This document shows positions 42,977 to 54,575 of a stretch of 64,000 nt of DNA, in pieces. Under the pieces are notes generated by a model. That model was not told where the DNA came from. It did no database searches and worked only from the letters and a program-made list of their open reading frames with translations. Both the position numbers and the translations under genes were made by a program. How positions within the stretch are numbered: the first letter of the stretch is position 1; each line of letters begins with the position of its first letter. The stretch comes from Fibrobacter sp. UWB16 (lineage in GTDB: Bacteria > Fibrobacterota > Fibrobacteria > Fibrobacterales > Fibrobacteraceae): contig NZ_OCMS01000004.1 of the NCBI RefSeq assembly GCF_900215325.1, positions 62,001 to 126,000 of the forward strand. Reading direction: 5' to 3'.

Positions 42977-42988
42977 ACCAGCTTTTTC
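42962..42988. terminator. Bidirectional terminator closing the cassette
   Basis: AAAGCTGGTT pairs with AACCAGCTTT, overlapping the last codons and stop of the Cys-cluster gene, with T run on the right and A run on the left. The convergent EAL gene ends at 42988. Confidence 0.8.
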
Positions 42989-44928
42989 TATATCGAAATG
43001 CCCTTTTCTTTGAGCACAGCCATCACCTCATCATACGGGAGCGGTTTCGAATAATAATAGCCCTGCACGCGGTCGCATCCAATTTCCTTCAAGAAATCCA
43101 GATGTTCCTTTATTTCCACGCCTTCCGAAAGCGTTCCAATATGCAATAGTTTAGCCATTTCCACAATGGCGCGGATAATTACCTTGGACTTTTCCGTGAA
43201 ATTCCGCAAGAACATCATGTCGATTTTCAAAAAGTCAAAGTCATAATCTTTCAACACGTTCAACGACGAGAAGCCCGAGCCAAAGTCATCCATCCAGACT
43301 TCAAAACCGTCTTTCTGGAAACGCGTCACCTGCTCACGGATATAGCCGTCCTCGTCTCCATCCAGCACCGATTCCGTAATCTCGATATGGATCATCTCAT
43401 GCGGCACATTGTATTCTTTGGTCAGCCTCGAAAGTTCCTTATAAATGTCGCTCAGCTTAAAGTCCAGGCGCGAGAGGTTAAACGAAATTGGGACACACTT
43501 GTTCCCCAAATTCGTTTCCACACGGTATTTTTCGCAAATTTTCTTGAGCACGAACAAGTCCAGCTTCTGGATCAAGTGAGCGTCTTCTAAAACGCCGACA
43601 AAATCAAGCGGCGGCAAAAAGCCGTGCTCCGGGTCATCCCAACGGGCAAGCGCTTCAAAGCCACAAAGCTTGTTCGTATTGATATCCACGACGGGCTGAT
43701 AAAAGACCTTGATGTATTCCTTTTCTACAGCCTCGTCAATGTGTGCAATCAAGTACATTTTCAAGCGTTCACGGGCGCCCATTTCATCGGCATAAACGGC
43801 GACATATTCATCGTAGACGCCCTTGGTCGTCGCTTCGGCAAGGCGAGCCCGCATAAAGCAACGTTCTACGTTTTCATTTTCAACACGCTGCACATACACG
43901 CCCGCCTTGAGCTCTAGCACACCTTGAGTCGAGAAGCTACGAATCTTGTCATGCGCTTCCTTGATTTTTGCCTTCATCCCGGCGGCATCACCTACAACGC
44001 GGAACGTATCGCACGACACATGCGTCACATAGCGCTCCCCGAACAGCGTCTTAAACGTATCCGCCATGAACTTCAGCGCACCGTCACCTTCTTCAAAGCC
44101 AAACCTCTCGTTAAAGGCCTTGAAATTCTCCAAATCAAAGGCGACAAACGCATAGCGTTTCCTCGGGTTCCTAAAGAGCAAGTCCTGCACGTAGTTCGAG
44201 AACAGAAGCGCATTCGGGAGCCCCGTCAACTTGTCATGGTTACGCGCAATTTCCGCCTGTTGCGTCAAGCGCACCGTCCTAAAAATAAGCTTCACCGCAA
44301 TCGTAAGCGTAAGCCAGAAGAACCACGATACAAAGACAAGGTAATTCAAAAATTCAGGAGTTACCTCGATCATGCGCACGCACACATACATGGCGAGGTT
44401 CACTAGCATACTAAATAACGTGACAAAACCCAAGAACCCAAAGCGCGCAAAGATTTGCGTGTTACGGACAAATAAAAGTTCATTCCAAAGGAGTTTCCAC
44501 CAAATGAAAATTGCAACCAAGTTTACCAGGGCTGCGCCAACCTGCGTCTTGCCCACCACCATGCCGAGGTAGCCCACGCCGACGGAGGCCGAAAGCATGA
44601 ACAACGACGCAGACCAGTGAATCGAAAGCACCCTCCCAAAAACAAAAATGGCCACAGGAATCAAAATGACGCGGCTCATGTAGTCCACTATCACGTCGAG
44701 CAATAACGGAACCTCGCCCATCATGCACGTAAGCAAATGCATCATCCCGTGATAAATCCAGTCCGAATAAATCATGTAGGGGGTCAGCGAAAAAACGGCA
44801 CCCCAAAAAAGTACATTCTTCAAGTTCTGTTTTTCAACAAGCGCAGCCAGCGTAAAAAGCAAAAAACCGCTCGCCAACAGCGACGGAAAAAAAAACACAT
44901 GATTTGCGTAATCCAGAAAATTTATCAT
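42988..44928 (-). CDS. Membrane GGDEF-EAL protein, probable c-di-GMP phosphodiesterase
   Basis: 646 residues. Six or seven membrane helices (about 1-230) form an integral sensor. The GGDEF domain (about 235-390) has lost its signature: the position reads HVSCDTF, so cyclase activity is not expected, though it may bind GTP. The EAL domain (about 400-640) is intact: EALARW, N in FNLSRLDF, EITES, MDDFGSGFSSL, K in LKIDMMF and SEGVE with GYYYSKPLP. It should hydrolyse c-di-GMP at the inner membrane, controlled by its membrane domain. Single gene. Confidence 0.92.
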   Translation of the reverse strand: MINFLDYANHVFFFPSLLASGFLLFTLAALVEKQNLKNVLFWGAVFSLTPYMIYSDWIYHGMMHLLTCMMGEVPLLLDVIVDYMSRVILIPVAIFVFGRVLSIHWSASLFMLSASVGVGYLGMVVGKTQVGAALVNLVAIFIWWKLLWNELLFVRNTQIFARFGFLGFVTLFSMLVNLAMYVCVRMIEVTPEFLNYLVFVSWFFWLTLTIAVKLIFRTVRLTQQAEIARNHDKLTGLPNALLFSNYVQDLLFRNPRKRYAFVAFDLENFKAFNERFGFEEGDGALKFMADTFKTLFGERYVTHVSCDTFRVVGDAAGMKAKIKEAHDKIRSFSTQGVLELKAGVYVQRVENENVERCFMRARLAEATTKGVYDEYVAVYADEMGARERLKMYLIAHIDEAVEKEYIKVFYQPVVDINTNKLCGFEALARWDDPEHGFLPPLDFVGVLEDAHLIQKLDLFVLKKICEKYRVETNLGNKCVPISFNLSRLDFKLSDIYKELSRLTKEYNVPHEMIHIEITESVLDGDEDGYIREQVTRFQKDGFEVWMDDFGSGFSSLNVLKDYDFDFLKIDMMFLRNFTEKSKVIIRAIVEMAKLLHIGTLSEGVEIKEHLDFLKEIGCDRVQGYYYSKPLPYDEVMAVLKEKGISI

Positions 44929-45431: not shown

Positions 45432-47861
45432 ATGAAATCCAAATTACTCTTAGCAACATCAATCTTCACACTTTCCATGCTCTACGGCTGCCTTGACGAG
45501 GTAAGCGAAGCAAGCGCCCCGGACTTGTCCGAACTCGCCTGCAAAACAGAACCGCTAGACGATGACAGCGGTCTCAAGGTTATCTGCGGCGGTGATTCCG
45601 TAGGTGTCGTTTTGAACGGCAAAGACGGTAAGGACGGGAAAGATGGCGAAGACGGAAAATCCGGCGCCGATGGTAAAAACGGTAAAGACGGAACAAACGG
45701 CAAAGACGGATTATCCTGCTACGTCACCGAAAACTCAGAAATCAACGGCTACGACGTGTTCTGCGGCGATGAAAAAATCGGTTCAATCGTGAACGGCAAG
45801 GATGGTGCCGACGGTAAAAATGGTGAAAACGGCGCCAACGGTAAGGATGGCGACAAGGGTGACGATGGTAAGGACGGCAAGGATGGTAAGGATGGAACTT
45901 CCTGCACGGTCGAAGTAAACGATGACATCAACGGCTACGACGTCGTTTGCGCAGGCAAGAAGGTCGGCGAACTCCGCAACGGCAAAGATGGTGAAAAGGG
46001 CGCTGACGGAACGAATGGCACCAACGGCAAGGACGGTAAGGATGGAACTTCCTGCACGGTCGAAGTAAACGATGACATCAACGGCTACGACGTCGTTTGC
46101 GCAGGCAAGAAGGTTGGCGAACTCCGCAACGGTAAGGACGGAGAAAAAGGTGCAGACGGTACGAACGGTATCGACGGTAAGGACGGTAACGATGGTTCTT
46201 CCTGCACCGTCGAAGTAAACGATGACATCAACGGTTTCGACGTCGTTTGCGCAGGCAAGAAGGTCGGCGAACTCCGAAACGGTAAGGACGGAGAAAAGGG
46301 CGCTGACGGTACGAACGGCACCAACGGCAAGGATGGAACTTCTTGCACGGTCGAAGTAAACGATGACATCCATGGTTACGATGTCATCTGCGCGGGCAAG
46401 AAGGTCGGTGAACTCCGCAACGGCAAGGATGGTGAAAAGGGCGCTGACGGTACGAACGGCACCAATGGTAAGGACGGTAAGGACGGAACATCTTGCACGG
46501 TCAAAGAGAACAAGGATATCGACGGTTACGAAGTATTCTGCGGCGACGAAAAGGTCGGCGAACTCCACAACGGTAAAGACGGCAAAGACGGCAAAGATGG
46601 TAAAGACGGTAACGACGGTACATCCTGCTCTGTCGTAAAGAACGAAAAGGTCAATGGATACGAAGTTTACTGCGGTACCGAATTCATAGGATACCTCATG
46701 AACGGAAAGGATGGCGCTGATGGCAAGGACGGTAAGGATGGAACTTCTTGCACGGTCGAAGTAAACGATGACATCGATGGTTACGATGTCATCTGTGCGG
46801 GCAAGAAGGTCGGTGAACTCCGCAACGGTAAGGACGCAGTCCTTCCTTCCTCCAGCAGCATCGCTTCTTCAAGCAGTGCAGCACCTTCTAGCAGCAGCAA
46901 GGTTTCCTCTAGCAGCGCAACACCTTCTAGCAGTAGCGTAGCATCCTCCAGCAGCGAAGCCATTTCTAGCAGCAGTGAAATTTCCTCTAGTAGCGAAACC
47001 CCGTCCAGCTCCAGCGTCGAACAACTCAGTGAAAAGTGTAAAACTCTCCGCGCCACAACAGATGTATTCAACTCACTCTACGACGTTCTCGGCTGCACCC
47101 GCTCCGACGAAAAAGTCGCCATCATCCTGCGCCACGCCCAACGCGACATTCACAAATACGGCGATGACGACGGCCTCATCGAAGTCGGCAGACAGCAAGC
47201 AAAACAAGTCGGCGAGAAACTAAAGGATCTCAACCTCGACGATTTCTATTATATGTACACGAACGTCAAGCGCACCGCAGAAACCGCACAAATCATCGCC
47301 ATTAACAAAGGCGAAAACGTTTCGACAGACATCAACGACTGGCACAAGCATAGCATCGCAAACCTTACCGAAATCAACCAGAACCTGAAGGAATCTTGGT
47401 ATGTCAAGCCGGGCCAGAGCGCAGGCAACTGCAAAGGTGGCGCGAGCTGGGGCTGGAGTTCTTACTCCAAAATCGCCTATCAAGAATACGACGACGACAA
47501 CAACCGTCAAAACTGCGAAAACGCATTCTACCCCATCGACACAAGAATTGAAGCATTCATCGAAAACTACTTTACATACGAACAAATGCACAAGTACACT
47601 TTAGCCATTTCGCACGACCAATACCTCGTGCCATTCGTCGTTACAATCAGCAACAAAAAAATCCACGACGACGTTAAAAATTCCAAATACGATCTCCGCT
47701 TCCACAAGCACGATCGCGACATTAACTGGAATCCAGATTTTAACTACTGGATTAACTACCTCACCGGCGTAGTACTCATCATAGACGCCGACAACAGCGT
47801 TATAAAGCTCCCCGTCAAAGCACTAGACGACGGATTCCTGCGCAAATACGAAAATCCATAA
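45432..47861 (+). CDS. Collagen-like lipoprotein with C-terminal histidine-phosphatase domain
   Basis: 809 residues from the ATG at 45432. Signal peptide with lipobox (LYGC, Cys about 20). Residues ~35-470 alternate nine two-Cys modules (C-x-V-E-V-NDDINGYDV-x-C-x-GKKVGEL) with runs of Gly-x-y triplets such as GKDGKDGKDG; the second Cys of each module lies 13-16 residues after the first. A poly-Ser linker (~470-533, SSSSxxx units) follows. The C-terminal ~245 residues are a histidine-phosphatase-type fold: LRHAQRD (RHG variant with Ala), YTNVKRTAETA and ISHDQYLVP. A surface stalk displaying a phosphatase-like domain is inferred. Collagen-like triplets may trimerise, and the Cys pairs may make disulfides. 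Activity is uncertain because RHG is RHA. Confidence 0.85.
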   Translation: MKSKLLLATSIFTLSMLYGCLDEVSEASAPDLSELACKTEPLDDDSGLKVICGGDSVGVVLNGKDGKDGKDGEDGKSGADGKNGKDGTNGKDGLSCYVTENSEINGYDVFCGDEKIGSIVNGKDGADGKNGENGANGKDGDKGDDGKDGKDGKDGTSCTVEVNDDINGYDVVCAGKKVGELRNGKDGEKGADGTNGTNGKDGKDGTSCTVEVNDDINGYDVVCAGKKVGELRNGKDGEKGADGTNGIDGKDGNDGSSCTVEVNDDINGFDVVCAGKKVGELRNGKDGEKGADGTNGTNGKDGTSCTVEVNDDIHGYDVICAGKKVGELRNGKDGEKGADGTNGTNGKDGKDGTSCTVKENKDIDGYEVFCGDEKVGELHNGKDGKDGKDGKDGNDGTSCSVVKNEKVNGYEVYCGTEFIGYLMNGKDGADGKDGKDGTSCTVEVNDDIDGYDVICAGKKVGELRNGKDAVLPSSSSIASSSSAAPSSSSKVSSSSATPSSSSVASSSSEAISSSSEISSSSETPSSSSVEQLSEKCKTLRATTDVFNSLYDVLGCTRSDEKVAIILRHAQRDIHKYGDDDGLIEVGRQQAKQVGEKLKDLNLDDFYYMYTNVKRTAETAQIIAINKGENVSTDINDWHKHSIANLTEINQNLKESWYVKPGQSAGNCKGGASWGWSSYSKIAYQEYDDDNNRQNCENAFYPIDTRIEAFIENYFTYEQMHKYTLAISHDQYLVPFVVTISNKKIHDDVKNSKYDLRFHKHDRDINWNPDFNYWINYLTGVVLIIDADNSVIKLPVKALDDGFLRKYENP
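45880..46840. repeat. Tandem repeats coding collagen-like/two-Cys modules
   Basis: The CCTGCACGGTCGAAGTAAAC-type start recurs at about 45901, 46051, 46201, 46342, 46492, 46624 and 46747, that is, with periods of 150, 150, 141, 150, 132 and 123 nt. Differences are whole codons, mainly in the number of Gly-Lys-Asp triplets. Copies three to five are nearly identical, which suggests recent duplication or gene conversion. Confidence 0.9.
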
Positions 47862-47872
47862 CACATAAGTTT

Positions 47873-47898
47873 CAAAGCCCCCGCCCGGGGGCTTTTTT
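47873..47898 (+). terminator. Intrinsic terminator
   Basis: AAAGCCCCCG and CGGGGGCTTT form a strong GC stem followed by T. Confidence 0.88.
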
Positions 47899-47914
47899 CG
47901 TAAGTACAAAAACA

Positions 47915-47945
47915 AAAAACAACGCCCCACAAGGCGTTGTTTTTC
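47915..47945. terminator. Terminator near moxR (both directions)
   Basis: AAAAACAACGCC pairs with GGCGTTGTTTTT. It can end moxR transcripts from the minus strand and back up the plus-strand terminator at 47873. Confidence 0.7.
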
Positions 47946-48056
47946 AATGTCAAAAAAGGAGATTTTCGCCTTTACGGCAGTTGCGCTTTTCAAGCGCACT
48001 GCCCGGCGGCTCGGTCATGGGCTTTCGAGCAAGCTCGACGCCCGCGACGCTCGCCT

Positions 48057-49040
48057 TTACGGCACTTCCACAGAATCCAAAATCTTCTGCACGACAGTTT
48101 CGGCAGTGACTTCTTCCGCTTCAGCTTCGTAGCTCAGGATCACGCGGTGACGCAGCACTTCCATCGCGACAGCCTTCACATCTTCCGGCGTCACATAAGC
48201 GCGGCCCTGGATAAACGCATGAGCCTTCGAAGCTTGGGCAAGACCGATAGAAGCACGCGGAGAAGCGCCCACTTCCACAAAGCCCACCAAGTCGCTACGC
48301 TTGATGCTACCCGGATCACGCGTTGCCAAGACCAGGTTCACGATGTATTCGCGCACGCGTTCGTCCACATAAACCTGCTTCACAAGCTCGCGAGCCTTCA
48401 AGATATCTTCCTTCGTCGCGACCGCATTCGGCTGACGCAGCCCTGCACCCGAGACAGCATCGAGAATCTTCATTTCGTCAGCCTTGTTCGGGTAGCTCAC
48501 CTTCACCTTCAAGAGGAAACGGTCTACCTGAGCTTCCGGCAGCGGATACGTACCTTCCTGTTCAATCGGGTTCTGCGTGGCAAGCACCAAGAATGGTTCG
48601 TCAAGCTTGAACGTTTCGTCGCCAATCGTGATGTGGCGTTCCTGCATGGCTTCGAGCAAAGCGCTCTGCACCTTTGACGGAGCACGGTTAATTTCATCAG
48701 CAAGCACAAGGTTCGTGAAGAGCGGACCCTTGCGCGTTTCGAACTTTGCTTCTCGGGCGTTATAAATCGTCGTACCGAGCAAGTCTGCCGGCAGCAAATC
48801 AGGAGTAAACTGGATGCGCTTGAAGTCGAGCGAAACAGCATCGGCAAAAGCCTTCACCGCAGTCGTCTTGGCAAGGCCCGGGAGGCCTTCCAAAAGCACG
48901 TGGCCATCTGCCAAAATACCCGTCAGAATGCTTTCAACCATTGCCTTCTGACCAATCACCGTATCTTCAACTTCACGCAGCAAGTTCATGCAAAAAGAAC
49001 TCTGCTGCTTCACCTTTTCCGAAAGTTCCTGAATATCCAT
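48057..49040 (-). CDS. MoxR-family AAA ATPase
   Basis: 327 residues. Walker A GLPGLAKTT (about 56-64), Walker B LVLADEINRAPSKVQSALLEAM, sensor-1 ATQNP and the family's IEQEGTYPLPEAQ segment are all present. MoxR ATPases act as chaperones that assemble or activate protein complexes, mostly with DUF58/VWA partners. Here the expected partners are not adjacent: DUF58 lies at 32.3 kb and the BatD-like gene at 57.1 kb. A strong promoter was not identified. Confidence 0.94.
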   Translation of the reverse strand: MDIQELSEKVKQQSSFCMNLLREVEDTVIGQKAMVESILTGILADGHVLLEGLPGLAKTTAVKAFADAVSLDFKRIQFTPDLLPADLLGTTIYNAREAKFETRKGPLFTNLVLADEINRAPSKVQSALLEAMQERHITIGDETFKLDEPFLVLATQNPIEQEGTYPLPEAQVDRFLLKVKVSYPNKADEMKILDAVSGAGLRQPNAVATKEDILKARELVKQVYVDERVREYIVNLVLATRDPGSIKRSDLVGFVEVGASPRASIGLAQASKAHAFIQGRAYVTPEDVKAVAMEVLRHRVILSYEAEAEEVTAETVVQKILDSVEVP

Positions 49041-49258: not shown

Positions 49259-50032
49259 CTACCATCCAAAGAAACTTAAGGACAAAGAATATCGATCTAC
49301 ATCGGAAATTTTTTCATGCTTTTGAGGATTGCCTCTATAATCTTTGCGCTTATATGTCAAATCTCTCCCATAGCGGAATTCAAGACTCACCCTTGTGACA
49401 TAATATGGAATAAAAGAGATATACGCACCACATCCAATTTCATCATAAAAAATAGGAGCCGACAGACCTACATTAAGCATCGATGAGGATTCTTCCACAA
49501 CCATCGCTTCACGGCCATTTCTGGATAAATGTTGCGTCAAGCCAAATCGGAAATTGTCTCCCATAGGCAACTGTTCAATAATGGACACACCTCCACCCCA
49601 CTGAAAATACTTGTGTTCCACCTTTTCCAATTGCCACAACCACAAATTACTCCAACCCATTACACCGAAATAATCTGATACAAAACCTGCTTGCACATAG
49701 GGAGTCACATAATCAAGTCCAAATCCATACTTAAAATGCCCTATATTCTTTTGTAGCGAAAATTGAAAATCAACCGGCCATTCTTCACCAGTATAGTAAT
49801 GATATTTATCATACCATTCTTTAGAATGTTCTAACTTTTTAATATTATCTGCAACGTGCTCACCAACAAGAGCCAAATCTCCCCAAATTGCAGAAACCGA
49901 AAAATCTTTCACAAAAGAATCTTCACTCTTTTCCATAAACGTCGCTGCTGATGGCGGATGAATAATAGCAACGCTACACCCCGCAAGCATCACCGCCACA
50001 AGCAAAACAAGTAAATGAGCCAACCTATTCAT
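49259..50032 (-). CDS. Paralogous beta-rich lipoprotein (copy 1)
   Basis: 257 residues. Lipobox VMLAGC (Cys about 19). The mature part is unknown but clearly related to the products at 50043-50816 and 52116-52862: all share HPPSA-x-FME, HFKYGFGLDYVTPYVQAGF, YFGVMGWSNLWLWQLEKVEH, the YFQWGGGVS segment, LTQHLSRN and LEFRYGRDLTY. Alternating aromatic strands suggest a small barrel or sandwich on the outer membrane. It follows its paralogue by 10 nt, so the two form an operon. No function is known to me. Confidence 0.8.
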   Translation of the reverse strand: MNRLAHLLVLLVAVMLAGCSVAIIHPPSAATFMEKSEDSFVKDFSVSAIWGDLALVGEHVADNIKKLEHSKEWYDKYHYYTGEEWPVDFQFSLQKNIGHFKYGFGLDYVTPYVQAGFVSDYFGVMGWSNLWLWQLEKVEHKYFQWGGGVSIIEQLPMGDNFRFGLTQHLSRNGREAMVVEESSSMLNVGLSAPIFYDEIGCGAYISFIPYYVTRVSLEFRYGRDLTYKRKDYRGNPQKHEKISDVDRYSLSLSFFGW

Positions 50033-50042
50033 ACTAAAAAAA

Positions 50043-50816
50043 TCACCTGCTAATAAAACTGACTATTAAAGAATACCTATTAATATCGCGTACAACATCT
50101 CCATCGCCAGACTTCGATTCTACATATTTATACGTCAAATCTCTTCCGTATCGAAATTCTATTCCCACCCTAGTCTTTCCAAAAGGAATAAAAGATACAT
50201 ACGCCCCACCTCCGATTTCGTCATAAAAAACTGGTGCAGCCCTATCAAAATCACGTGGCCATGCACCACTATATTGAGTAATGATACCTTCTCGGGCATT
50301 TCGCGATAAATGTTGAGTCAAGCCGATTCGAAAATTATCCCCAATCGGCAACAGTTCTATCAGCGAAATTCCTCCACCCCACTGAAAATATGCGTGCTCC
50401 ACTTTTTCCAATTGCCATAAACACAAATTACTCCATCCCATCACGCCCAAATAATCCGAAACAAAACCTGCTTGAACATAAGGAGTCGCAAAATCAATTC
50501 CAAAACCATACTTGAAATATCCAATATTTCTTTGAAGGGAACCTTGAAATTGGACCAACCACTCCATATCTACGTAATACCAATCTTCTTTCCACCTTTC
50601 CGAACGCTCGACTTCTTTCACTCCTTCAGCAACATATAGCCCATTCTTCTTATTTAAATTTTCTCCCCAATATGCAGAAAACGAAACATTCGTAAGAAAA
50701 GCATCTTCGCTCTTTTCCATAAACGCCGCAGCAGATGGCGGATGAATAATGGCAACGCTGCACCCCGTAAGCACCGCCACCACAATCAAAACAAGTAAAC
50801 AAGCCAACCGATTCAT
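50043..50816 (-). CDS. Paralogous beta-rich lipoprotein (copy 2)
   Basis: 257 residues from the ATG at 50816; the GTG just before it (50819) is an alternative. Lipobox VLTGC. Same family as its neighbours, most alike in the first 40 residues and in the central KYGFGIDFATPYVQAGF and FGVMGWSNLCLWQLEKVEH segments; the middle (about 40-75) and the end differ, which suggests divergence of exposed loops. Its upstream 146 bp are duplicated before copy 3. A candidate promoter reads TTGAAA-N16-TATTTT on the minus strand, within 20 nt of the start, and there is no ribosome-binding site. Confidence 0.8.
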   Translation of the reverse strand: MNRLACLLVLIVVAVLTGCSVAIIHPPSAAAFMEKSEDAFLTNVSFSAYWGENLNKKNGLYVAEGVKEVERSERWKEDWYYVDMEWLVQFQGSLQRNIGYFKYGFGIDFATPYVQAGFVSDYLGVMGWSNLCLWQLEKVEHAYFQWGGGISLIELLPIGDNFRIGLTQHLSRNAREGIITQYSGAWPRDFDRAAPVFYDEIGGGAYVSFIPFGKTRVGIEFRYGRDLTYKYVESKSGDGDVVRDINRYSLIVSFISR

Positions 50817-50962
50817 CACGTATAAAATAGCTTTAATTCAAAAAGTTTCAACGTAATCCATCGTCAAATTTCAACCTCCCATCAGGCGAATTAAACAAGA
50901 AGGCGATTCCGCATACTTCGACTACGCTCAGCACAGGTTCCAGCCGGAACGACATTTGAGAA
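50817..50962. repeat. Duplicated upstream block, copy A
   Basis: About 146 bp that recur at 52863-53007 with few differences. It includes the minus-strand promoter of the lipoprotein gene and a dispersed repeat with the CTTCGACTACGCTCAGCACA core. Confidence 0.85.
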
Positions 50963-50994
50963 GGGCATGACAAAACGCCCTCTGGAGAAACGAA

Positions 50995-51040
50995 TTTGGC
51001 AAGCGGTGATTGCCAAATTGGGCAAGCAGTGATTGCCCAA
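50995..51040. repeat. Two tandem hairpins, related to those inside the DUF1016 gene
   Basis: TTTGGCAA/TTGCCAAA (50995-51017) is followed at once by TTGGGCAA/TTGCCCAA (51018-51040), then TCTGAAAAAT. The same two-hairpin order and TCTGAAAAA tail are in the DUF1016 gene at 53762-53815. In one plus-strand frame it reads LASGDCQIGQAVIAQSEK, close to LANGVCQIGQTLFAQSEK of that gene. Confidence 0.75.
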
Positions 51041-51048
51041 TCTGAAAA

Positions 51049-52115: not shown

Positions 52116-52862
52116 CTACCACCCTTGAAAATCAATCATAAACGTATACCGGTTGAAATCGCTTATAATGTTACCGTCAATTTCTTTTTCATCAAAACGA
52201 TAATACGTTAGATCTCTTCCGAGCCGAAATTCAATACCAACATTTGTTCCTGTTCCAACACCAAATGAAACATATGCACCTCCACCAATTTCATCGTAGA
52301 ATATAGGCGTGGGTGTAGGAATGCTGAAGCTCAAGTCATATATACCATGAGCTATATTTTCACGACCATTTCTTGATAAATGTTGCGTCAAACCAATGCG
52401 AACGCCATTCCCTATCGGCAACTGTTCAATAACAGACACACCGCCCGCCCACTGAAAATACTTGTGTTCTACTTTTTCAAATTGCCACAAGCAAAGATTG
52501 CTCCAACCCATCACGCCAAAATAATCCGAAACAAACCCCACCTGTATATAAGGTGATAATAAATCAAATCCAAAACCGTATTTAAAATATCCATAGCGTC
52601 GCTGAAACGAAACAGCAACTTCTACAGGAGATTCCTCTTCTCTATAGCTGTATTCTTCATTTACTTCTTTTTTCACATACTTTTTAGGAATAAAATCATA
52701 AGCCACACCCCCTACTGTAGCAGAAATTGAAGCATCGCGCACAAAGCCATCTCTATCATTTTCCATAAACGCCGAAGCAGAAGGTGGATGAACAAGCATT
52801 GTATTACACCCCGCAAGCATCACCGCCACAAGCAAAACAAGTAAATGAGCCAACCGATTCAT
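52116..52862 (-). CDS. Paralogous beta-rich lipoprotein (copy 3)
   Basis: 248 residues from the ATG at 52862 (GTG at 52865 also possible). Lipobox VMLAGC. Same family as copies 1 and 2, with the shared KYGFGFDLLSPYIQVGF, FGVMGWSNLCLWQFEKVEH, LTQHLSRNGRE and FRLGRDLTY segments. The 20 signal-peptide residues are almost identical to copy 1, while the upstream region is the duplicate of copy 2's. This suggests repeated local duplication and shuffling. Single gene, separated from copies 1-2 by dinD. Function unknown. Confidence 0.8.
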   Translation of the reverse strand: MNRLAHLLVLLVAVMLAGCNTMLVHPPSASAFMENDRDGFVRDASISATVGGVAYDFIPKKYVKKEVNEEYSYREEESPVEVAVSFQRRYGYFKYGFGFDLLSPYIQVGFVSDYFGVMGWSNLCLWQFEKVEHKYFQWAGGVSVIEQLPIGNGVRIGLTQHLSRNGRENIAHGIYDLSFSIPTPTPIFYDEIGGGAYVSFGVGTGTNVGIEFRLGRDLTYYRFDEKEIDGNIISDFNRYTFMIDFQGW

Positions 52863-53007
52863 CACGTATAAAATAGCTTTAATTCAAAAAGTTTCAACGT
52901 AATCTATCAGCAAATTTCAACCACCCATCAGACGATTCATACAAGAAGGCGATTCCGCATACTTCGACTACGCTCAGCACAGGCTCCAGCCGGAACGACA
53001 TTTGAGA
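52863..53007. repeat. Duplicated upstream block, copy B
   Basis: Near-identical to 50817-50962, including the AAAGTTTCAACGTAAT stretch and the CTTCGACTACGCTCAGCACA core; one small length difference. Confidence 0.85.
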
Positions 53008-53381: not shown

Positions 53382-54575
53382 ATGGCTAAAAATATCGATT
53401 TCAACGGACTCTGTAACGCTATCGCGCAAATCGACGAAGCTTTCGTCGAAAACACCGCCAAGGCAATCAACAAGAACGTGACCGCCCGCAACTGGCTTAC
53501 CGGCTACTACATTGTGCATTACGAGCAGAACGGCAACGACAGGGCAACGTACGGAGCTAAAACGCTCCAAAAACTAGCGGAACGCCTGAACAAGAAATCT
53601 CTTTCTTACAGGAACTTGAAGCTTTATCGTCAATTCTACATAGAATTCAAAAATTTGGCGCGTCCGGTTCTTGAATTCACGGCTTCAGAATTCGGCTCAA
53701 ACAGGCTACTAACAGCCGATTTGGGGGCCAATCTGGAAGCATTGCCCCCTATGGATTCAGATTTGGCAAACGGCGTTTGCCAAATTGGGCAAACACTGTT
53801 TGCCCAATCTGAAAAAATCGAAATTCCGCCCGAAAAGCTTTTCGACCACCTATCATATTCACATTTCCTACTCATTATGGGTGTCGAAAATCCACTGGGA
53901 CGAGTTTTTTATGAACTGGAAACAATGAAGGGAGTCTGGTCTTTTCGTGAACTCAAGCGCCAAATCGACTCCAACTATTTCGAGCGCACAGCCCTGAGCA
54001 AGAACCCTGCAAAAATGAGCGCAATCGTCCAGTCCCGTATTGCCCAGACAGGACATTCCCCGACCTTAAAAGATTTGGTCAAGAGCCCGTATGTTTACGA
54101 ATTTATCGGTATCAACAACAAAGATGTTGTCGAAGAATCCGATTTGGAAAACGCATTGATGAACCATCTTGAAGAGTTCCTGTTGGAACTGGGCAATGGA
54201 TTTTGTTTCGAGACGCGTCAAAAGCGCATTCTCGTTGATGACGACTACTTTTTCTGCGACCTAGTCTTTTACCATAGGATTCTCAAATGCCATGTGTTAA
54301 TTGACTTGAAAGCCACAAAAATCAAGTACGACGACATTGCTCAAATGAACCTGTACCTCGCCTATTACCGAAAGAATGTAATGGAAAAGGGAGACAATCC
54401 CCCTGTAGGAATTTTAATGTGTACAAAGGCTGGCAAGGAACTTGTGGAATACGCAACAGCGGGAATCGAGGAATCACTCTTTGTACAAAAATACAAGCTG
54501 AGTCTCCCTGCCAAAGATGAACTGACCCGATGGCTCAAAAAAGAAGTCAACGATAATCGCGACACTTCAAAATAA
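53382..54575 (+). CDS. DUF1016/YhcG-family PD-(D/E)XK nuclease
   Basis: 397 residues; the start at 53382 has AGGAG upstream, better than the ATG at 53322. The N-terminal DUF1016 domain has RNWLTGYYIVHYEQNG and LSYRNLKLYRQFY. The C-terminal nuclease fold has DDYFFCDLVFYHR and VLIDLKATK (D-x-K in place of the usual E-x-K), then AQMNLYLAYY. The linker (about 115-145) is coded by three hairpins in tandem, a variable zone. YhcG-type proteins are predicted nucleases often found in mobile or restriction-linked settings. Single gene, closed by a hairpin terminator. Confidence 0.88.
   Translation: MAKNIDFNGLCNAIAQIDEAFVENTAKAINKNVTARNWLTGYYIVHYEQNGNDRATYGAKTLQKLAERLNKKSLSYRNLKLYRQFYIEFKNLARPVLEFTASEFGSNRLLTADLGANLEALPPMDSDLANGVCQIGQTLFAQSEKIEIPPEKLFDHLSYSHFLLIMGVENPLGRVFYELETMKGVWSFRELKRQIDSNYFERTALSKNPAKMSAIVQSRIAQTGHSPTLKDLVKSPYVYEFIGINNKDVVEESDLENALMNHLEEFLLELGNGFCFETRQKRILVDDDYFFCDLVFYHRILKCHVLIDLKATKIKYDDIAQMNLYLAYYRKNVMEKGDNPPVGILMCTKAGKELVEYATAGIEESLFVQKYKLSLPAKDELTRWLKKEVNDNRDTSK
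53732..53807. repeat. Three tandem hairpins inside the DUF1016 gene
   Basis: TTGGGGGC with GCCCCC (about 53732-53759, loop 15), TTTGGCAAA/TTTGCCAAA (53762-53784) and TTGGGCAAA/TTTGCCCAA (53785-53807). They code the linker between the two domains and keep the frame. Confidence 0.85.

Follow-up and report, generated by a model that had tools for sequence, protein, structure and literature searches.

A predicted Fibrobacter lipoprotein with a histidine-phosphatase head on a collagen-like stalk

A gene of Fibrobacter sp. UWB16 joins collagen-like repeats to a histidine-phosphatase domain and raises the question of what such a stalk presents at its tip, an enzyme or a binding domain, and how the combination has evolved. 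The gene lies in a 64,000-nucleotide stretch of contig NZ_OCMS01000004.1 (the window), in a genome of 3.56 Mb in 9 contigs. Its open reading frame (45432-47861, + strand) extends from an ATG at 45432 to a stop codon at 47859-47861 and encodes 809 amino acids. Pfam matches of the translation to Collagen (8e-25, in 7 stretches) and to His_Phos_1 (5e-7) are both above the cut-off, which puts the combination of collagen and phosphatase far beyond chance. Nor is the architecture an assembly artefact, because the search of related genomes suggested with the original prediction recovered the same design from other Fibrobacter genomes, where it occupies the corresponding locus; head orthologues occur in Fibrobacter succinogenes and in uncultured Fibrobacter. 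The combination was also rightly said to belong to no named family, since neither the two-Cys module nor the domain combination is covered by a model in Pfam or NCBIfam. The original prediction did not mention the lipoprotein anchor, the constant genomic position, the sharing of the stalk with FISUMP proteins or the apparent exchange of heads. Most likely, the protein is an outer-surface phosphatase held off the cell, where we infer both the surface exposure and the catalysis.

Gene boundaries and stalk

A Shine-Dalgarno-like GGGAG is located upstream of the ATG at 45432. Downstream of the stop codon, a stem-loop with a U-tract (47874-47898, + strand) likely represents an intrinsic terminator; its folding energy is -16.5 kcal/mol, and an equally good fold was obtained in 4 of 200 shuffles. 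This + strand stem was seen by folding and is absent from the list produced by the terminator scan. A 15-pair stem-loop with a U-tract on the - strand (47913-47946) faces it, and the two terminators are thus convergent. The first 20 residues (MKSKLLLATSIFTLSMLYGC; 45432-45491, + strand) form a predicted signal peptide with a lipobox, read by eye as LYGC (residues 17-20) and found as LSGC, LTGC or LNGC in the orthologues. The protein is thus a putative bacterial lipoprotein, lipidation being expected at Cys20.

The mature chain follows the layout that had been proposed: nine two-Cys modules, collagen-like triplets and a poly-Ser linker can all be counted in the 809-residue translation. The C-x14-C modules number exactly nine, at residues 37, 96, 158, 208, 258, 305, 355, 399 and 440, and the array ends at residue 466. 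Modules 1 (45540-45620) and 2 (45717-45797) have positional orthologues in other species. Modules 3-6 with their intervening Gly-X-Y runs (45903-46424) are built from near-identical units, all about 150 nt long except for one of 141 nt, and are followed by modules 7 (46494-46574), 8 (46626-46706) and 9 (46749-46829), the last with 96% nucleotide identity to module 6. Tandem Repeats Finder reports a period of 150 with 4.8 copies at 45874-46582. The earlier description of near-identical 150-nt copies is accurate for modules 3-6 and 9 (86-97% nucleotide identity) and does not extend to modules 1, 2, 7 and 8, which have diverged. Eight Gly-X-Y runs alternate with modules 2-8 (45618-46748) and comprise 11, 12, 8, 8, 7, 8, 6 and 5 triplets (65 in total), each run being uninterrupted. 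Position X is occupied by Lys (30), Thr (14) or Ala (8) in most of them, and position Y by Asp (39), Asn (12), Ser (9) or Lys (5). A poly-Ser linker made of SSSS-xxx repeats (about residues 471-530; 46842-47021) connects the array to the head (residues 531-809, 279 amino acids; 47022-47858), all on the + strand.

In a monomer structure prediction for a two-module fragment, we find two three-stranded beta units with block pLDDT values mostly between 77 and 88. Strands comprise module residues 2-6, 11-16 and 19-25, with Cys 1 and Cys 16 located at or adjoining strands 1 and 2, and the modules are probably closed by a disulfide. For the runs between them, a trimeric collagen triple helix is plausible. 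Alternatively, the stalk could be monomeric, with the modules as beads and the runs either as flexible spacers or as polyglycine-II-like helices packed inside a single chain, a possibility to which we give real but lesser credence. None of the 65 triplets contains Pro, Y is mainly Asp or Asn, the runs span only 5-12 triplets and no recognized trimerization domain lies beside the head, as one might expect for a monomer. Such a composition departs from that of most bacterial collagens, for which frequent Pro at X is typical but not strictly required: about 19% of bacterial triplets have Pro at X, and the low-Pro, Lys/Asp-rich Scl2.28 nonetheless forms a triple helix with a Tm of 35.6 C (PMC8968730). 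The linker between the modules has a pLDDT below 50, yet in a monomer prediction, which is incapable of showing a trimer. The Pfam Collagen score and a Gly register that is intact in every orthologue again speak for collagen-like runs.

Fold and predicted active site of the head

We compared the predicted head structure to known folds. The AlphaFold2 model (pLDDT 95.8, pTM 0.93) has phosphoglycerate mutase-family proteins and PGAM5 as leading Foldseek matches, with E values of about 1e-7. A second aligner, VIA, gives Z scores of 12.3 for RosC, 12.2 for SixA, 11.4 for prostatic acid phosphatase and 10.4 for a Bacteroides MINPP, and 404 of the 998 chains aligned reach a Z of at least 8. The top PDB matches are superfamily members, in agreement with the fold first proposed, and the modeled head certainly belongs to the histidine phosphatase superfamily. 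Branch-1 and branch-2 matches differ by less than 1-2 Z, and the VIA list therefore cannot rank the two branches. By sequence, the head resembles branch 1: it scores 29.9-32.7 bits against PF00300 (gathering threshold 21.7), which matches 34 of 36 family heads at E 0.1 or better. Yet it carries RHxxR and HD, and branch 2 is recognized by RHGxRxP and HD (PMC9432691); the assignment to branch 1 is not certain. Membership in the branch-2 acid phosphatases and phytases was considered and rejected, as the heptapeptide RHAQRDI contains no Pro and branch-2 Pfam models match neither the head up to E 1 nor any family member at 0.1.

In an alignment of 36 family heads, 26-94% identical to the one in the window, 13 columns do not vary at all, including those of R37, H38, R41, R84, H198 and D199. 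Adding 530 converts head numbering into full-protein numbering, and the predicted catalytic residues are thus R567, H568, R571, R614, H728 and D729. Strands of the model end at R37 and before H198. The aligned ranges start with model residue 31 at SixA residue 1 and with model residue 27 at residue 1 of prostatic acid phosphatase; presuming that no gap occurs early in the alignments, H38 would correspond to His8 of SixA and His12 of prostatic acid phosphatase, and R41 to Arg15 of the latter. Asp-199 of the HD motif is invariant in 36/36 heads, and by analogy it would be the likely proton donor. In branch-1 enzymes the proton donor is located elsewhere, and SixA is not known to have one. The four head cysteines (536, 555, 667 and 695) are all present in 30 of the 36 heads and all missing from the remaining 6, a pattern consistent with disulfides in an exported, extracytoplasmic protein. 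As substrate leads only, we note the fold match to MINPP and a weak similarity, in NCBIfam, to the LPS heptose-phosphate phosphatase PmrG (1.1e-6, far below the cut-off).

The RHG motif of the superfamily reads RHA in the window protein, and the original prediction had concluded that the head may bind rather than cleave. The family alignment does not bear this out: the third position (residue 39) is Ala in 29 heads, Ser in 4 and Gly in 3, while R-H, the second Arg and the second His are fixed in all 36. Human PGAM5 carries RHS and is enzymatically active with an undisturbed fold (PMC5501728). The invariant catalytic positions together with RHS in an active enzyme rule out a dead or binding head as the default reading. 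Within head types, dN/dS is about 0.07-0.24, and the heads appear to be under purifying selection. That the head is a pseudo-enzyme binding some phosphorylated ligand, with the whole protein acting as an adhesin, seems to us quite improbable. This reading would account for the replaced RHG residue, for the pseudoenzyme flea acid phosphatase 8gdl among the fold matches, for the loss in some clades of an acidic residue near the WY/WF motif and for the frequent adhesin role of collagen-like proteins such as Lcl (PMC11162425), but leaves unexplained why the variable position is the third one and not a catalytic one, and why dN/dS stays at about 0.1 within head types. From these sequence features the head is, in our view, a phosphatase exposed at the cell surface, and on balance we favor a surface lipoprotein whose long repetitive stalk has an active phosphatase at its tip.

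Distribution, stalk length and head exchange

Of 80 Fibrobacter genomes, 79 contain head relatives at E 0.001 or better. When 168 genomes from the whole phylum were searched at a stricter limit, heads turned up in 8 of 41 genera, all Fibrobacteraceae, often with about eight copies per complete genome; the two-Cys stalk is present in 64 of the 168. Family heads come with a collagen and two-Cys stalk, with poly-Ser alone or with hardly any stalk. A phage or plasmid origin can be dismissed, with tblastn returning no head relative from 50,697 phage or 72,556 plasmid records. Two further kinds of relative are encoded in the window genome. A tandem pair of lipoprotein-like proteins of 675-730 amino acids (G000:C3:125532-128347; L049, L052) has heads of the same phosphatase family and N-terminal parts of about 450 residues that differ from the collagen stalk; similar pairs occur in many Fibrobacter genomes. 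A 227-residue histidine phosphatase with no visible signal peptide (L061:1429-2109; G000:C3:41759) shares a C-terminal W-NFLTG motif and may resemble a cytoplasmic protein from which the secreted heads arose.

The same stalk design also bears other heads. Five FISUMP-domain proteins with collagen-like runs are encoded on contigs C1 and C2 of the window genome (L043, L044, L045, L046 and L056), most of them with two-Cys modules, forming an Lcl-like set on the same kind of stalk. A further protein (L042:742-2406, - strand; G000:C1:1024085-1024849) combines a collagen and two-Cys stalk with a C-terminal head of about 250 residues that has no Pfam match and thus represents another head type. Because the design carries FISUMP heads in the same genome, it may serve as a general display stalk.

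In F. succinogenes-like genomes, the gene is flanked by two locus markers, in the window an upstream GGDEF-EAL gene (42988-44928, - strand) and a downstream gene for a MoxR-type AAA ATPase, named from its sequence (48057-49040, - strand). One genome (G018; L096, 3388-7773) retains both neighbors with other open reading frames between them and no collagen-phosphatase gene, which is therefore dispensable. Beside the MoxR gene lie at least three tandem paralogues encoding lipoprotein-like proteins of about 257 residues (49259-50032, 50127-50844 and 52359-52890), whose copy number differs in relatives. Related 23-bp tandem repeats of the AATTGGGCAAGCAGTGATTGCCA type, with two copies each, are found at 50993-51041 and 53761-53808.

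Comparing repeat numbers between species, as had been suggested, we count 4 to 14 modules in complete copies at this locus; the counts for G057 and G072, whose arrays are cut by contig ends, are minima, and assembly may have collapsed some arrays in metagenome-assembled genomes. For modules 1 and 2, the best match is generally the positional counterpart in another species (up to 0.99). Many interior modules are instead closest to copies within the same gene, which indicates array turnover. In the window genome this turnover is not very recent, because even the closest module pairs (3/4 and 6/9) have diverged at 11% of their synonymous sites. The active expansion that had been read from the repeats therefore calls for caution and leans mainly on the variation in length between species.

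Head and flanks at the locus have conflicting histories. Between the window genome (G000) and G046, nucleotide identity is 90.6% in the GGDEF-EAL gene, 86.0% in the leader, 66.0% in the head and 94.9% in the MoxR gene. Between G000 and G075 the corresponding values are 71.6, 62.8, 86.9 and 94.4%; the GGDEF-EAL gene is itself fast-evolving, and farther out the G075 flanks show about 85-90% identity. In AU tests, with groups picked after the distance tables had been seen, forcing the flank clade on the head data costs 113 log units (p 8.8e-58), and forcing the head clade on the flank data costs 247 (p 1.4e-40). The grouping of the 62-residue leader agrees with that of the flank (support 91/94), and the leader data reject the head clade (p 0.023). 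The locus has at least three types of head: type A, with poly-Ser (G000, G001, G008, G071, G072, G075 and G043), type B (G046 and G005) and type C (G066, G052, G069 and G023). The simplest reading of these sequences is that the 3' part of the gene has been replaced, with the switch point located within the repetitive stalk. Differential loss among old paralogous loci, or replacement of the whole gene, is an unlikely alternative to recombination within the gene: the many head paralogues could have served as donors, and gene content between head and MoxR varies in several species, but the gene keeps its neighbors, and its leader sides with the flank while the head conflicts, as in the comparison with G046. 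Given this conflict and the turnover of interior modules, the repetitive stalk may be a platform for recombination. We tentatively extend replacement within the stalk to a Fibrobacter-specific surface display platform, possible though short of probable, in which heads that include working phosphatases are swapped between lineages inside the repeats.

A working model would be as follows. The chain would be exported and, as its lipobox suggests, lipidated at Cys20. Each two-Cys module would fold into its small beta unit, and the Gly-X-Y runs would lengthen the stalk, possibly by forming short triple helices that neighboring modules clamp. The poly-Ser linker and the head would then project from the membrane. 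If the chemistry of the superfamily applies, the head would hydrolyze a phosphomonoester by a two-histidine mechanism, with H568 as nucleophile, R567, R571, R614 and H728 binding the phosphate and D729 as likely proton donor. The repeats would allow changes in stalk length and the exchange of heads with related alleles, presumably by recombination within the stalk.

Comparison with known stalk proteins and histidine phosphatases

Bacterial collagen-like proteins have been discussed mostly as adhesins, structural proteins or biomaterials, and an enzyme on a collagen-like stalk would, if true, be a new use. A review of bacterial collagens does not mention a phosphatase (PMC8968730), and the titles and abstracts of phytase papers yielded nothing on the window protein. 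Our literature searches found nothing on Fibrobacter with histidine phosphatase or with FISUMP; for Fibrobacter and collagen-like proteins they returned only the Lcl work and a conference abstract book. Fibrobacter is a major fiber digester of herbivore guts, and little is understood of the surface by which it attaches. The restriction of the family to one lineage, with about eight phosphatase heads per complete genome, suggests an unrecognized surface function, for example in phosphate scavenging, in trimming phosphate from surface polysaccharide or LPS, or on plant phytate.

Among histidine phosphatases, the head shares its fold, the R-H pair, the second Arg and the second His with the branch-1 proteins SixA, PGAM5 and RosC (PF00300), but has an additional C-terminal region (head residues 199-279), RHxxR, HD and four cysteines, and is predicted to be secreted and stalked. 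With the acid phosphatases, phytases and MINPP of branch 2 it has RHxxR, HD and a predicted extracytoplasmic location in common, along with fold similarity to 2hpa and 4fdu (Z 10.4-11.4); it differs from them by its smaller domain, by the missing Pro of the heptapeptide and by the lack of a branch-2 Pfam match.

The overall design is that of a lollipop, as in Lcl of Legionella and Lcl-like DUF1566 proteins, surface proteins in which a collagen-like stalk likewise leads to a globular head at the C terminus (PMC11162425). The Lcl head is a carbohydrate-binding DUF1566 trimer, whereas the window protein carries a histidine phosphatase and has no Pfam match to DUF1566 (NCBIfam Lcl, 8 bits vs 500). 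Lcl repeats are rich in Pro (GPQGLPGPKGD); the stalk described here has no Pro, is interrupted by two-Cys modules and has a lipidated Cys as its predicted anchor. Several of the Fibrobacter FISUMP proteins (TIGR02145 / PF09603; L043-L046) likewise combine a lipoprotein start with Gly-X-Y runs and two-Cys modules and differ in their head family: the window protein matches neither model in Pfam or NCBIfam, whereas its sister stalk proteins do. The streptococcal adhesins Scl1 and Scl2 also have a charged, Lys/Asp-rich Gly-X-Y stalk of variable repeat number, as in the stalk family described here. They differ in their LPXTG anchor, N-terminal head and lack of Cys modules, and the window protein scores 69.5 with the NCBIfam Scl model (cut-off 325). 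A variable stalk with exchanged heads offers a natural experiment in the evolution of modular surface proteins. If our reading is correct, it would be an evolvable enzyme-on-stalk system whose logic resembles that of the polymorphic tips of phage tail fibers or contact-dependent toxins.
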